A DNA stretch of 37,911 nucleotides from Hoeflea sp. BAL378 (GTDB lineage: Bacteria > Pseudomonadota > Alphaproteobacteria > Rhizobiales > Rhizobiaceae). Positions 1 to 3,184 of the stretch are shown piece after piece. Below the pieces are notes generated by a model. That model did no database searches and was not told where the DNA came from. It saw only the letters and a list, made by a program, of their open reading frames with translations. Within the stretch, counting starts at the first letter, position 1; every line of letters starts with the position of its first letter. The translations under genes and the position numbers were made by a program. Location of the stretch: positions 1-37,911 of the forward strand of contig NZ_JRJG01000020.1 in assembly GCF_000759435.1 (NCBI RefSeq), written 5' to 3'.

Positions 1-905
1 CATCCCTGGCAGGAGGCCGCGGCCCCGGCCAGCGCCGGGCGCTCGGGCGTCTCGCCGGGGCCGCCGGAATAGCGGCTTCCGGCGATGGCGTGATCGCGGG
101 TGGTGTGGCAGGTGGAGCAGGTGAAGCCGGCGCCGTCCGGCGCGGGCGCCATGTGCACATCGAGCGCGGCCACGGGAGCGACCAGGTCGGCGTTGAGGTC
201 GCCATGCTTGACCCCGGGACCGCCATCGGCGTTGAAATGGCAACTGCCGCAGCTCGCCCGCGTCGACGGGCCGACCGAGCGGGCGGCGGCGGCCAGATCC
301 TTGACCTCCGGCGCGTCGCCGCGCAGCCGCTCGTCATGGCACATGGAGCAGGCAGCCCCGCCTTCGTGGAAATTGGAGAGCGCCCACTTGCCGGTGGGCT
401 CGTGGCAGGTGAGGCAGTCCACCGGCGCGACCGGCGGGCCGGACGGATCGAACATCGCCGGGTCCTCGAAGCGCGTGCCGGAAATGTGGCAGGAGGTGCA
501 GGCCTCGATGTTGGACGGCACCGACAGCAGGAATCCGTTGGCGACATGGAGCATGCCGAGCAGCTCGGCCTTGCCTCCGGCCGTCTCGCCATCGCCGGCC
601 TTGGGCCAGGACCAGGTGAAATGGATCGAGCCGTGGAGTTGCTCGGACCCTGTGTTGTGGCAGGACAGGCAGGCCTGGTTGACCTCGCCGGCGCTGGCGA
701 AGGGCCCCGCCAGCGCCGGAAAACTTCTGTGATCGGCGGTGGAGGCCGGAATGCCGGCCCGGGCAGGGGCGGCGGACGCCGGAGCTTCGCCGGTGGTCGC
801 CCCGGCGGTGGCCGCCGGCGGATCCGACTGGGCCGCCGATGGCGAGGCGATTGCAACCGCCAGGCTGAACGCCAGACTGAGACCTGCGAGCCAGCGCGGT
901 GTCAT
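1..905 (-). CDS. Octahaem c-type cytochrome, tetrathionate reductase (OTR) family, 3' part missing
   Basis: Periplasmic multihaem electron-transfer protein, cut by the window edge (301 whole codons visible). A signal peptide (first ~25 residues, ending SAAQS) is followed by a low-complexity Ala-rich linker to ~55. CXXCH haem motifs start at C79, C136, C164, C186, C219 and C263. A seventh begins at C299 (CQG then TG-), exactly at the edge. The stretch ADHRSFPALAGPF (57-69) before haem 1 and HFTWSWP after it match the N-terminal signature of OTR-family octahaem cytochromes. Known OTR proteins reduce tetrathionate, nitrite or hydroxylamine in vitro, but their physiological substrate is not settled. 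The ATG at 905 has GGAAGGGG about 8 bases upstream. It is the last visible gene of a minus-strand operon with the pentahaem gene and rquA. The family call is firm; the substrate is unknown. Confidence 0.82.
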   Translation of the reverse strand, partial: MTPRWLAGLSLAFSLAVAIASPSAAQSDPPAATAGATTGEAPASAAPARAGIPASTADHRSFPALAGPFASAGEVNQACLSCHNTGSEQLHGSIHFTWSWPKAGDGETAGGKAELLGMLHVANGFLLSVPSNIEACTSCHISGTRFEDPAMFDPSGPPVAPVDCLTCHEPTGKWALSNFHEGGAACSMCHDERLRGDAPEVKDLAAAARSVGPSTRASCGSCHFNADGGPGVKHGDLNADLVAPVAALDVHMAPAPDGAGFTCSTCHTTRDHAIAGSRYSGGPGETPERPALAGAAASCQG

Positions 906-940
906 CGATCTTGCCCCTTCCAGGATTGTTTCTCTTGGAG

Positions 941-968
941 GGGCCTGGCCGCGGCGGCGGCCAGGCCC
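941..968 (-). promoter_or_regulatory. Perfect 12-bp intercistronic hairpin between two cytochrome genes
   Basis: GGGCCTGGCCGC (941-952) and GCGGCCAGGCCC (957-968) are perfect reverse complements with a 4-base loop. The hairpin lies in the 90-bp gap between the pentahaem and octahaem cytochrome genes. No T tract follows on either strand, so it does not look like a simple intrinsic terminator. An mRNA stabiliser or processing element that sets the ratio of the two cytochromes is possible (inference). Confidence 0.6.
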
Positions 969-995
969 TAATCGGGTCTCACCGAAGCAGGCGGC

Positions 996-2180
996 TCAGT
1001 TCGGACGGGTGCCGACCACCTCGACCCCGCTGCCGGCCGCCGCCAGATCGTCGATGCTGTCATACAGCAACTGCAGCGCGTAATAGGGATTGTGGGTGTA
1101 CATGCCCAAATCCTTGGCGACGACCTGGTAGTTGTAGGCGGCCTTGAGTTGCCGCGGCGTCCACGACTGGTAGCGGTTGGGGAACACGGCCTCGGCGTCC
1201 TCGATCGCGCCGCTGCCGTCGCCATCCTGGAAGAAGTACGGATAGGCATTCTCGTGATAGGCGATCGCGGTGCCGGCCACCTGCTTGCCATAGCCCTTGA
1301 TGGCGTCGAGCAGCCGTGCATGCAGCGCCTTGATCTCGGCGTAGACGCCTTCCTTGGCGTCGCCATTGCCGTCGAAGTCCACCTTGGAGGTGCGGATCAG
1401 CCGGAGCGACTGCTTGTCGTCGGCCACCACTTCGGTGTGGCATTCCGTGCAGGTGGCCACCTTCACCTGCAGCTTGTGCGGGCTGTGGCAATCGGTGCAG
1501 AGCTGCGACACCTGGTCGTGGAAATAATAGCCGGCATATTCCTTTCCGTCATACTCGTATCCGCCATGCACCTCGCCGCCGAACCGGCTTGCCGCGGAAG
1601 CGCGGTAGTGGATGTTGACGAAGCCGATTTCGGCCGAAGGCGTATCTTCGTCCGGCGACGCCCCCGCCTTGGCGATTTCCTCGCCGACCTGGACGGTGGA
1701 AGCGCGGCCGCCGTGGCAGGTCATGCAGCGCGCATCGGGGGTGAGGACCTCCTGCTCGACGCCGGAGGGGAAGGTGACGACGCTCATGGAGCGGGCGACG
1801 TCATTGTGACAGGCCATGCAGGCGATCCCGGGTGCCACGGCCGGATCGGGCGAATGCTTGGTGTCGACGGTGCCGGCGGCGCTGCCGTCCGCGCCGAGGT
1901 AATCCATGAAGCCCGCGGTCGAGTGACATTTGGAGCAGACCTCCGGGATCATCTTGTCGTCTTCATTGTCCCAGTGGCGGAAGGCCTCGCGGGTGATGTT
2001 GGCGTGGGGCGAGCCGCGCCATGCGTCGAGATTGGGGATCTCCGGCATCAGGGTCGCCGGCGCGGGCACCGCCGTTGCCGGACTTTCCTGGGCCTCTGCC
2101 CGCTGGAGCTGTGCTCCTCCCCATGCTGCAAACCCTGTCATGGCAGCCATGACCACGACGACACGAACTGATATTCTCAT
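996..2180 (-). CDS. Secreted pentahaem c-type cytochrome with EF-hand-like loops
   Basis: 394-residue periplasmic electron-transfer protein. A signal peptide covers about residues 1-31 (hydrophobic VVVVMAAMTGFAAW, cleavage after AEA). Five CXXCH motifs start at C82, C121, C152, C228 and C244. Many extra histidines (for example H59, H69, H109, H191, H205) could be distal ligands. Behind the haem part, a haem-free C-terminal domain of about 145 residues carries two Asp-rich loops. The one at 319-330 (DGDGSGAIEDAE) fits the EF-hand pattern fully. The one at 268-279 fits partly, lacking the acidic residue at position 12. The ATG at 2180 follows GGGGAGA with 8 bases spacing; a longer upstream reading would lose the signal peptide. 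It lies 49 bp after rquA and 90 bp before the OTR-family gene, so they probably form one transcript. No exact family is recognised; a redox partner of the octahaem protein is likely. Confidence 0.85.
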   Translation of the reverse strand: MRISVRVVVVMAAMTGFAAWGGAQLQRAEAQESPATAVPAPATLMPEIPNLDAWRGSPHANITREAFRHWDNEDDKMIPEVCSKCHSTAGFMDYLGADGSAAGTVDTKHSPDPAVAPGIACMACHNDVARSMSVVTFPSGVEQEVLTPDARCMTCHGGRASTVQVGEEIAKAGASPDEDTPSAEIGFVNIHYRASAASRFGGEVHGGYEYDGKEYAGYYFHDQVSQLCTDCHSPHKLQVKVATCTECHTEVVADDKQSLRLIRTSKVDFDGNGDAKEGVYAEIKALHARLLDAIKGYGKQVAGTAIAYHENAYPYFFQDGDGSGAIEDAEAVFPNRYQSWTPRQLKAAYNYQVVAKDLGMYTHNPYYALQLLYDSIDDLAAAGSGVEVVGTRPN

Positions 2181-2229
2181 CGCATTGTCTCCCCTTCGCG
2201 CGCCAGCCGCGCGGATCTGCATTAAGAGT

Positions 2230-2937
2230 TCATATCGAACCCCGGCGGTGGGCGACGGTCTTCTGGAAGACGCCGCCGAAAAATGTCTCCTTGGTCCATT
2301 CGAACGCGGCCGCATCGGCGCCCAGGTCGCGGATCTCGTGATCCCACATGCTCAGCGCAAAGGGCTCCAGCCGCTCGAACAGCTTGCGATAGAAGCCGCG
2401 CATAGGATGCAGCCTTGCCGGACGGTGGTAGTCGACGAACACGGCGCGGCCGCCGGGCGCCACGCGCTGGAGCAGCGCGGTGACGATGGCCTGCTTCATG
2501 TCGTCGGGAACCTCGTGCAGGAGGAAATAGCAGCTGACCACGTCATAGAGGCCGTCGCCGGGCTTGGACGCGTCGGCGATGCGGACGCGGGCCTGCTTCA
2601 TGCCCCACAGTTTCCGCCGGCACAGGGCCGCCTGCAGCGGGGCCACGTCCATGGCGTCGAGGCTGCCCTTGGGACCAATGCGCCGGGCGATTTCGGGAAT
2701 CAGCGTGCCATAGACGTGAGCCGCCTGAAGCACGCTTTGCCCGCTCGAGAACTCGGCCAGGGCCGCGTTCCGCAGCCGCACGTGATTGCCAAACAAGATG
2801 ATCCCCACGATCGTCTCGTTGTCGAGAAGCCGGGCATTGCGCGGATCCAGGTAAGCCCAGGTGTAGGTGTTCTTGAGATACGCAGGAACAGCATGAACTG
2901 CCGGGATGGAACGGAGGTCGTCGGGAATTTGTAACAT
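2230..2937 (-). CDS. rquA: RquA-type methyltransferase, rhodoquinone biosynthesis
   Basis: 235-residue class I SAM-methyltransferase-like protein. RquA converts ubiquinone to rhodoquinone, the low-potential quinone used to feed electrons to fumarate reductase and similar acceptors when oxygen is scarce. Family hallmarks seen: N-terminal AYLKNTYTWAYLDP (19-32), IILFGNHVRLRNAAL (46-60), the unusual motif I QAAHVYG (71-77) in place of the glycine-rich loop of ordinary SAM methyltransferases, FLLHE (138-142), VAPGGRAVFVDYHRP (159-173), and EPFALSMWDHEI (191-202). Known RquA proteins share this YG-containing motif I. The start is the ATG at 2937 (MLQIPDD); an in-frame extension to 3102 is compositionally odd and not family-like. 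The ribosome site is weak. It is first gene of the cytochrome operon. The alternative is an RquA paralogue with another quinone or small-molecule substrate. Confidence 0.77.
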   Translation of the reverse strand: MLQIPDDLRSIPAVHAVPAYLKNTYTWAYLDPRNARLLDNETIVGIILFGNHVRLRNAALAEFSSGQSVLQAAHVYGTLIPEIARRIGPKGSLDAMDVAPLQAALCRRKLWGMKQARVRIADASKPGDGLYDVVSCYFLLHEVPDDMKQAIVTALLQRVAPGGRAVFVDYHRPARLHPMRGFYRKLFERLEPFALSMWDHEIRDLGADAAAFEWTKETFFGGVFQKTVAHRRGSI

Positions 2938-3170: not shown

Positions 3171-3184
3171 TTGATCTTGCTCAA
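3171..3184 (-). promoter_or_regulatory. FNR/FnrL-type box upstream of rquA
   Basis: TTGATCTTGCTCAA contains a perfect TTGA-N6-TCAA core and matches TTGAT-N4-ATCAA at 9 of 10 specified positions. On the minus strand a weak -10-like GATATC lies about 21 bases downstream, compatible with FNR activation from near -41. The inferred leader to rquA would be about 200 nt, which is long. Oxygen-limited control would suit a rhodoquinone and cytochrome operon. The match is direct observation; regulation is inference. Confidence 0.5.

Follow-up and report, generated by a model that had tools for sequence, protein, structure and literature searches.

The stretch of DNA analysed here (the window) is the whole of contig G000:C20 of Hoeflea sp. 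BAL378, 37,911 bases from a genome of 5.48 Mb. At one end it carries rquA, a gene for a pentahaem c-type cytochrome, and part of a gene for a cytochrome of the OTR family. The two cytochrome genes belong to a cassette that continues into a gene for a PF01292 cytochrome b and is also found in Tropicimonas and Aliiruegeria, and nearly all of the searched genomes with the cassette have rquA as well. The reading given slightly better than even weight is that the locus is a rhodoquinol-fed periplasmic reductase branch, running from cytochrome b to a nine-haem OTR homologue with the pentahaem cytochrome as a relay. The direction of flow, the quinone used, and the acceptor are proposals built on the observed sequences, gene order, and rquA co-occurrence.

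Co-occurrence of rquA and the cassette

The cassette is defined as adjoining genes for the pentahaem cytochrome, the nine-haem OTR homologue, and cytochrome b. When the genome collection was scanned with the pentahaem alignment, 519 relatives came up, and the best 80 of them were examined. In eleven of these 80 pentahaem loci (58-95% identity) the next genes downstream are OTR and cytochrome b: two loci are from Hoeflea, six from Tropicimonas, two from Aliiruegeria, and one from a Rhodobacteraceae metagenome-assembled genome (MAG), UBA6213, making 12 with the window. The pentahaem proteins of the 12 cassettes form one clade (support 100/100). The remaining 69 of the best 80 (at most 52% identity) have neither OTR nor cytochrome b in the DNA examined, several being on contigs of only 3-5 kb. 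The outer flanks of the Rhodobacterales cassettes mostly differ and some flank genes are shared (four by L096 and L098, two by L095 and L103, one by L102 and L103), so the cassette has moved, though not between every pair.

rquA scores over its cut-off in nine of the ten cassette genomes searched, a set that left out Aliiruegeria sabulilitoris, and in 10/11 with the window's genome. The first-pass annotation had proposed looking for rquA next to the pentahaem gene in other genomes; the two are adjacent in Hoeflea only, and in seven Rhodobacterales genomes rquA is unlinked to the cassette and recurs at one site, beside genes labelled by eye as phoB-like and phosphate-transport-like. At L185-L191 (Tropicimonas/Aliiruegeria) rquA stands between phoB-like and aroQ/LuxR-type genes, also labelled by eye. 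The recurring place suggests vertical inheritance of rquA within these genera.

Background frequencies come from two genome samples, one of 201 relatives of the window's genome (its own included) and one of 394 genomes of the Tropicimonas family, centred on the window's genome and G208. rquA passes its cut-off in 9/201 and 4/394 of these genomes, and the cassette-type OTR is present in 3/201 and 2/394. Combined, rquA occurs in 5/5 cassette genomes and 8/590 others (Fisher p 2e-9, a value that ignores kinship). Because both samples are centred on cassette genomes, the fairer figure is the 3/3 that remains without the two centres (Fisher p 5e-6); one genome per genus leaves 2/2 (p 3e-4), and kinship is not fully corrected in either value. 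Thirty-nine genomes (31 + 8) have OTR matches of other types alone, a few of these matches being weak or partial, and a single one of the genomes (G584) has rquA. The co-occurrence supports a tie between rquA and the cassette that extends to genomes in which they are not linked.

The tree of 70 RquA sequences (INDEPENDENCE) joins the Hoeflea proteins to cassette-free order-level relatives, G189 and then G126 (100/94, 100/97), and places those of Tropicimonas and Aliiruegeria in a separate clade. The window RquA is 65% identical to that of G189 and at most 49% identical to those of Tropicimonas and Aliiruegeria. Seventy of 72 sequences were kept (duplicates L178 and L181 were removed), any stop signs in tblastn rows were changed to X, and the phylum search is represented by only the 30 matches given loci. 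A constraint joining the RquA of all cassette-bearers was rejected at p-AU 0.0246, which is significant but not overwhelming, and none of 200 bootstrap trees joined them. One homologous cassette seems to be paired with two different rquA genes, and it is mainly for this reason that a functional link is preferred over mere neighbourhood.

The assignment of the methyltransferase-like gene to RquA, proposed in the first-pass annotation, is upheld by the NF038261 equivalog model, which the window protein passes with 286.3 bits against a cut-off of 175 (H. olei 290.4, MAG-81 280.9) and which no gene of 14 control genomes passes. The window's genome has one rquA gene over the cut-off. Its product groups within the supported RquA set (100/97) in a tree without an outgroup chosen from other families, and it keeps the residues common to RquA proteins. 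D97 is invariant in 70/70 sequences and would be the equivalent of D118, the conserved S-adenosylmethionine-ribose Asp of Rhodospirillum rubrum RquA (PMC9814641), a protein outside the alignment. RquA converts ubiquinone to rhodoquinone in one step (PMC9814641; PMC11707229, confirmed in 15 species). A search of 72,556 plasmid records (E limit 1e-20) gave no rquA match.

Gene layout and the proteins of the cassette

The three genes of the window lie head-to-tail on the minus strand, as first described, and are transcribed in the order rquA, pentahaem, OTR with spacings of 49 and 90 bp (Table 1). A membrane quinol dehydrogenase had been expected beyond position 1, and reading past that point had been proposed as a check; contig G000:C20 ends at position 1, and no sequence can be read past it. 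The expected partner does exist, as the PF01292 cytochrome b, but is located on contig C71 of the same genome, where the C-terminus of OTR (1-318) is followed by the cytochrome b gene (311-943) and, by eye, a glutathione-transferase-like gene and an ABC-transporter operon. The flank past cytochrome b agrees with the flanks in H. olei and MAG-81, and C71 is for this reason taken to continue C20; the two contigs would adjoin, with the middle of the OTR gene on neither. All four genes are found in order on one contig in H. olei. The same order occurs in three Hoeflea genomes, with OTR and cytochrome b broken in MAG-81, and is therefore beyond chance. The Hoeflea genomes used for comparison are H. 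olei JC234 (G005, L094), sp. MAG-81 (G012, L093; 9% contamination), and H. alexandrii (G011, L129).

Table 1. Features of the window, with positions on contig G000:C20
Feature	Position	Strand	Remarks
rquA	2230..2937	-	235 amino acids, first gene of the set; NF038261 profile match
Pentahaem c-type cytochrome	996..2180	-	394 amino acids; five CXXCH, acidic loop DFDGNGD, signal-like N-terminus by eye
OTR-family cytochrome, N-terminal half	1..905	-	cut at contig end; six CXXCH visible
Gap between pentahaem and OTR genes	906..995	-	strong hairpin, no T-run behind it
Palindrome TTGATCTTGCTCAA, candidate FNR/FixK-type site	3171..3184	.	234-247 bp upstream of rquA

The OTR gene of the window occupies 3-905 and runs off the contig end. 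The encoded fragment matches TIGR04315 with 190.5 bits over model positions 1-209 of 440 and PDB 1sp3 at 6.6e-30; the complete OTRs of H. olei (402.1 bits) and Tropicimonas L095 (394.5 bits) exceed the TIGR04315 cut-off of 375. The label octahaem, given to the window protein at first, does not hold for its complete relatives: nine CXXCH motifs are present in 10/10 complete OTRs of the cassette clade, the ninth, C(S/A/T)MCH, falling between haems 3 and 4 of 1SP3. Since all OTRs are said to have eight haem motifs (PMC11024163), these proteins are called nine-haem OTR homologues here. The protein has a hydrophobic C-terminal segment, seen by eye, and is probably membrane-anchored; a structure prediction from an 11-row alignment had a mean predicted local distance difference test score (pLDDT) of 32.5 and was not used. 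The Lys of the sequence VKHGDL, invariant in 11/11, aligns to residue 153 of 1sp3 (counted along the alignment), which we take to be the Lys ligand of the catalytic haem; Asp150 of 1sp3 is not kept at the aligned position in cassette OTRs, and the roles of residues 150 and 153 are likewise assumed. OTR has been described as having "a highly conserved Lys" (PMC11024163). The cassette protein resembles the Shewanella oneidensis OTR (SO4144, PDB 1SP3) in its TIGR04315 family and in the catalytic-haem Lys position, but differs in its nine haem motifs, its hydrophobic C-terminal segment, and its place in a set with cytochrome b and the pentahaem cytochrome. In Shewanella, the shuttle STC receives electrons from CymA and interacts with OTR (PMC4484225).

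Twenty-seven other OTR loci were examined, drawn from the 39 genomes whose OTR matches are all of other types, plus further copies. Eight motifs are present in 24 of them and nine in L217; L223 is partial with six, and L224 gave no frame of four or more. A cytochrome b match is present in all 27, so OTR with cytochrome b is an ordinary pair, and the pentahaem and rquA genes are additions to it. The cassette thus shares its adjacent cytochrome b with alphaproteobacterial gene pairs of OTR and cytochrome b561, but these pairs mostly have eight haems and no pentahaem or rquA nearby (no match within about 1.5 kb on each side in the 26 loci tabulated). L217 (G134) has a nine-haem OTR and cytochrome b without a pentahaem or rquA match over cut-off, and the ninth haem is therefore not tied to the cassette. 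L223 (G168) is a partial look-alike of the nine-haem OTR.

The cassette cytochrome b scores 83.4 bits (H. olei) and 85.8 bits (Tropicimonas L095) against PF01292, for which the gathering cut-off is 30.1. Its best NCBIfam match is PhsC, the cytochrome b subunit of thiosulfate reductase (equivalog NF011582), but the score of 118 bits is under the cut-off of 204 and no molybdenum-enzyme subunit was recognised by eye in the cassette.

The pentahaem cytochrome of the window passes generic Pfam c-type haem models (e.g., Cytochrome_C7, 31.4 over 24.8) and none of the equivalog models, the best being far under cut-off; the model for NrfB, TIGR03146, gives 25.8 bits against a cut-off of 166.6. Among 42 aligned relatives, the five CXXCH motifs and five further His (H59, H191, H221, H235, and H363 in window protein numbering) are invariant, so all haems are probably His/His-ligated. 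CXXCK, the catalytic haem motif of the NrfA nitrite reductase (PMC8840924), is absent from all 42 members, in which all five motifs are CXXCH. The profile weakly matches nine-haem cytochrome c 1ofw (6e-5) and NrfA 3ubr (8e-5). A Foldseek search with the AlphaFold2 model (mean pLDDT 85.9) gave OcwA (9.2e-3) and an S-layer undecahaem cytochrome (6e-2), with no match under 0.001. The model therefore weakly resembles the fold of NrfA- and OcwA-type multihaem proteins, but the missing CXXCK and the five further invariant His suggest that there is no open catalytic haem, and the protein would be an electron relay.

Members of the pentahaem family are also found in other settings. A second copy, 46-47% identical, is present in the window's genome (L073, G000:C86:12421-13422) and in MAG-81 (L074, G012:C121); neither rquA nor OTR was found beside L073. 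The 69 cassette-free loci have no single neighbourhood theme by labels assigned by eye, with no family search; Na+-NQR-, antiporter-, ferric-reductase-, and cytochrome-b-like neighbours each occur at 5-7 loci. L075, L076, and other alphaproteobacterial genes of this group are near Na+-NQR-like and cation-antiporter-like genes (by eye). In Chloroflexi (L107, L109, L114, and others) the family takes the form of ten-haem proteins, either tandem or fused, and some of these genes adjoin cytochrome-b-like or further multihaem genes. Plasmid carriage of the pentahaem gene was considered and rejected, as each of five plasmid matches has less than 60% identity.

The region upstream of rquA offers a lead on regulation. 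TTGA-N6-TCAA occurs once in the window, against an expected 0.16, and a similar palindrome lies 234 bp upstream of rquA in MAG-81. Allowing at most one mismatch, TTGAT-N4-ATCAA, which we take to be the FNR-type consensus, is present in four of 19 upstream regions (window, MAG-81, cassette L103, and Rhodobacterales rquA L188; L187, with no rquA gene call, is excluded), where about 0.3 would be expected from the whole-locus rate, a rate uncorrected for intergenic base composition. H. olei has no such site, so an FNR-type site as the common regulator was set aside and remains a lead.

Proposed mechanism and competing readings

In a rhodoquinol-fed branch, RquA would exchange a methoxy group of ubiquinone for an amino group, as it does in other organisms, and so supply a low-potential quinone pool. 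The cytochrome b encoded after OTR would oxidise rhodoquinol at the membrane and pass electrons to the nine-haem OTR homologue, which would reduce a small sulfur or nitrogen compound; the pentahaem cytochrome would be a periplasmic relay or an entry or exit partner. The potential of rhodoquinone is given as -63 mV (PMC11707229) and as about 160 mV lower than that of ubiquinone (PMC13386864). OTR is reported to reduce tetrathionate, nitrite, and hydroxylamine (PMC4484225), and its haem potentials to lie in a range similar to the -100 to -450 mV of MmcA, well under ubiquinone (PMC11024163); because the OTR haems are of low potential, cytochrome b would gain from rhodoquinol. A broader proposal is given somewhat less than even weight: that the cassette is part of a horizontally moving, rhodoquinol-dedicated respiratory module not ending in fumarate, in which the nine-haem OTR cassette depends on a quinone with a potential below that of ubiquinone, so that its holders also obtain rquA. 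Two lineages would have done so with different rquA genes, Hoeflea placing rquA directly before the cassette.

Several observations weigh against a rhodoquinol-fed branch. The UBA6213 MAG has the cassette and the phoB place of its relatives, but no rquA there or elsewhere. In MAG-81 (L093 / L071), OTR is without its haem-rich middle (one CXXCH is left) and the cytochrome b gene has an internal stop, despite which rquA and the pentahaem gene look intact; this may be decay or a fault of MAG assembly. Hoeflea G006 (77% complete) has the pentahaem gene and an eight-haem OTR/cytochrome b pair on separate contigs, without rquA. Eight-haem OTR/cytochrome b pairs also exist without rquA elsewhere, and OTR itself is therefore not a rhodoquinone marker. 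rquA is commoner in wider samples, being over its cut-off in 20/289 genomes of the class and 59/289 of the phylum, and independent pairings of rquA with the cassette number only about two, in samples that were both centred on cassette genomes. The presence of the gene does not prove that the quinone is made, since an rquA from Desulfobacterota gave no rhodoquinone in Escherichia coli (PMC13386864), and the claim of two origins is fragile because an earlier study judged RquA trees weakly supported owing to the shortness of the protein (PMC11707229). Lastly, the first-pass annotation placed the genes in one operon, which is plausible in the window (the gap after rquA is short and no terminator-like site was listed on the strand) but weak in H. 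olei, where rquA and the pentahaem gene are 304 bp apart and a strong GC-rich hairpin followed by TATTTTT (L094:9697-9790) lies shortly after the rquA stop. The H. olei hairpin has a fold z-score of -2.75, with 2/200 shuffles as stable, and was not listed by the automatic terminator scan. In the window, region 900-1000, around the hairpin in the second gap, folds with a z-score of -3.93.

Among the alternatives, the one that fares best, although judged unlikely, is that rquA is there for fumarate reductase or for anaerobic redox balance in general, as in bacteria known to use rhodoquinone, that the cassette marks the same low-oxygen niche, and that the adjacency in Hoeflea is incidental. The terminator-like hairpin in H. 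olei fits such a separation, as do the position of rquA away from the cassette in seven Rhodobacterales genomes, the six relatives in the 201-genome sample that have rquA without the cassette, and the link drawn by Stairs et al. between rquA and complex II with other respiratory genes (PMC5953543). Shared niche does not account well for an association specific to the cassette, as rquA is found in 1/39 of the genomes that have OTR matches of other types alone. Neither the surroundings of rquA at the seven Rhodobacterales loci nor the window showed a fumarate reductase gene on inspection by eye, the genomes as such not having been searched for one.

It is improbable that the cassette is instead a rhodoquinol-fed conduit to an external acceptor (a metal, humic matter, or another cell), with the OTR homologue relaying electrons as does MmcA. 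MmcA is a relative of OTR that moves electrons outward, but it lacks the catalytic Lys that the cassette OTR keeps (PMC11024163). The top Foldseek matches of the pentahaem cytochrome, the cell-wall protein OcwA and the S-layer cytochrome, are compatible with this role though weak (9e-3 and 6e-2), as are the tandem or fused ten-haem relatives in Chloroflexi; however, inspection of the cassettes by eye showed neither an outer-membrane porin-like partner nor a lipoprotein one. Quite improbable is the oxidative direction, in which OTR would oxidise a reduced sulfur or nitrogen compound, cytochrome b would reduce ubiquinone, and rquA would be unrelated: cytochrome b does match, under cut-off, the subunits of two oxidatively working enzymes, formate dehydrogenase and hydrogenase, but its best NCBIfam match is to a reductive enzyme, although that too is under cut-off (118 of 204 bits), and the co-occurrence of rquA is left unexplained.

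Relation to known systems and significance

According to Stairs et al. (PMC5953543), respiratory complexes, hydrogenases, nitrate reductase, and cytochrome, ubiquinone, and haem genes can be found within 15 genes of rquA, so the occurrence of rquA next to genes for respiration has a precedent. The locus resembles published rquA loci, which are connected with rhodoquinol:fumarate respiration, in having an RquA equivalog with respiratory genes near it, but the partner is a multihaem cassette of a kind not named in the main-text section of that paper (supplementary gene lists aside). The first-pass statement that no system with this gene set has been described still stands for the open literature, supplements and subscription papers not being covered, where no pairing of rhodoquinone with such cytochromes was found. 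Searches of the same literature gave nothing on rhodoquinone with Hoeflea or with octaheme; what they gave on rhodoquinone with multiheme concerns, by its abstract, photosynthetic electron flow and not such a system, and that on rquA with tetrathionate concerns Acidithiobacillus and other acidophiles, unrelated by titles and abstracts.

The locus may be regarded as a new variant of the OTR/cytochrome b respiratory module, whose tie to rhodoquinone is unproven but open to testing. The cassette organisms include described strains (Hoeflea olei, Tropicimonas, and Aliiruegeria), and a direct test is therefore possible. Bacterial rhodoquinone is treated mainly as a donor for fumarate reduction in the literature as far as it was available. 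If the proposal is true, a second, periplasmic use of rhodoquinone would explain the presence of a single quinone-changing gene in some marine Alphaproteobacteria, and OTR-type cytochromes, described as respiratory enzymes of cryptic function (PMC11024163), would gain a physiological role.

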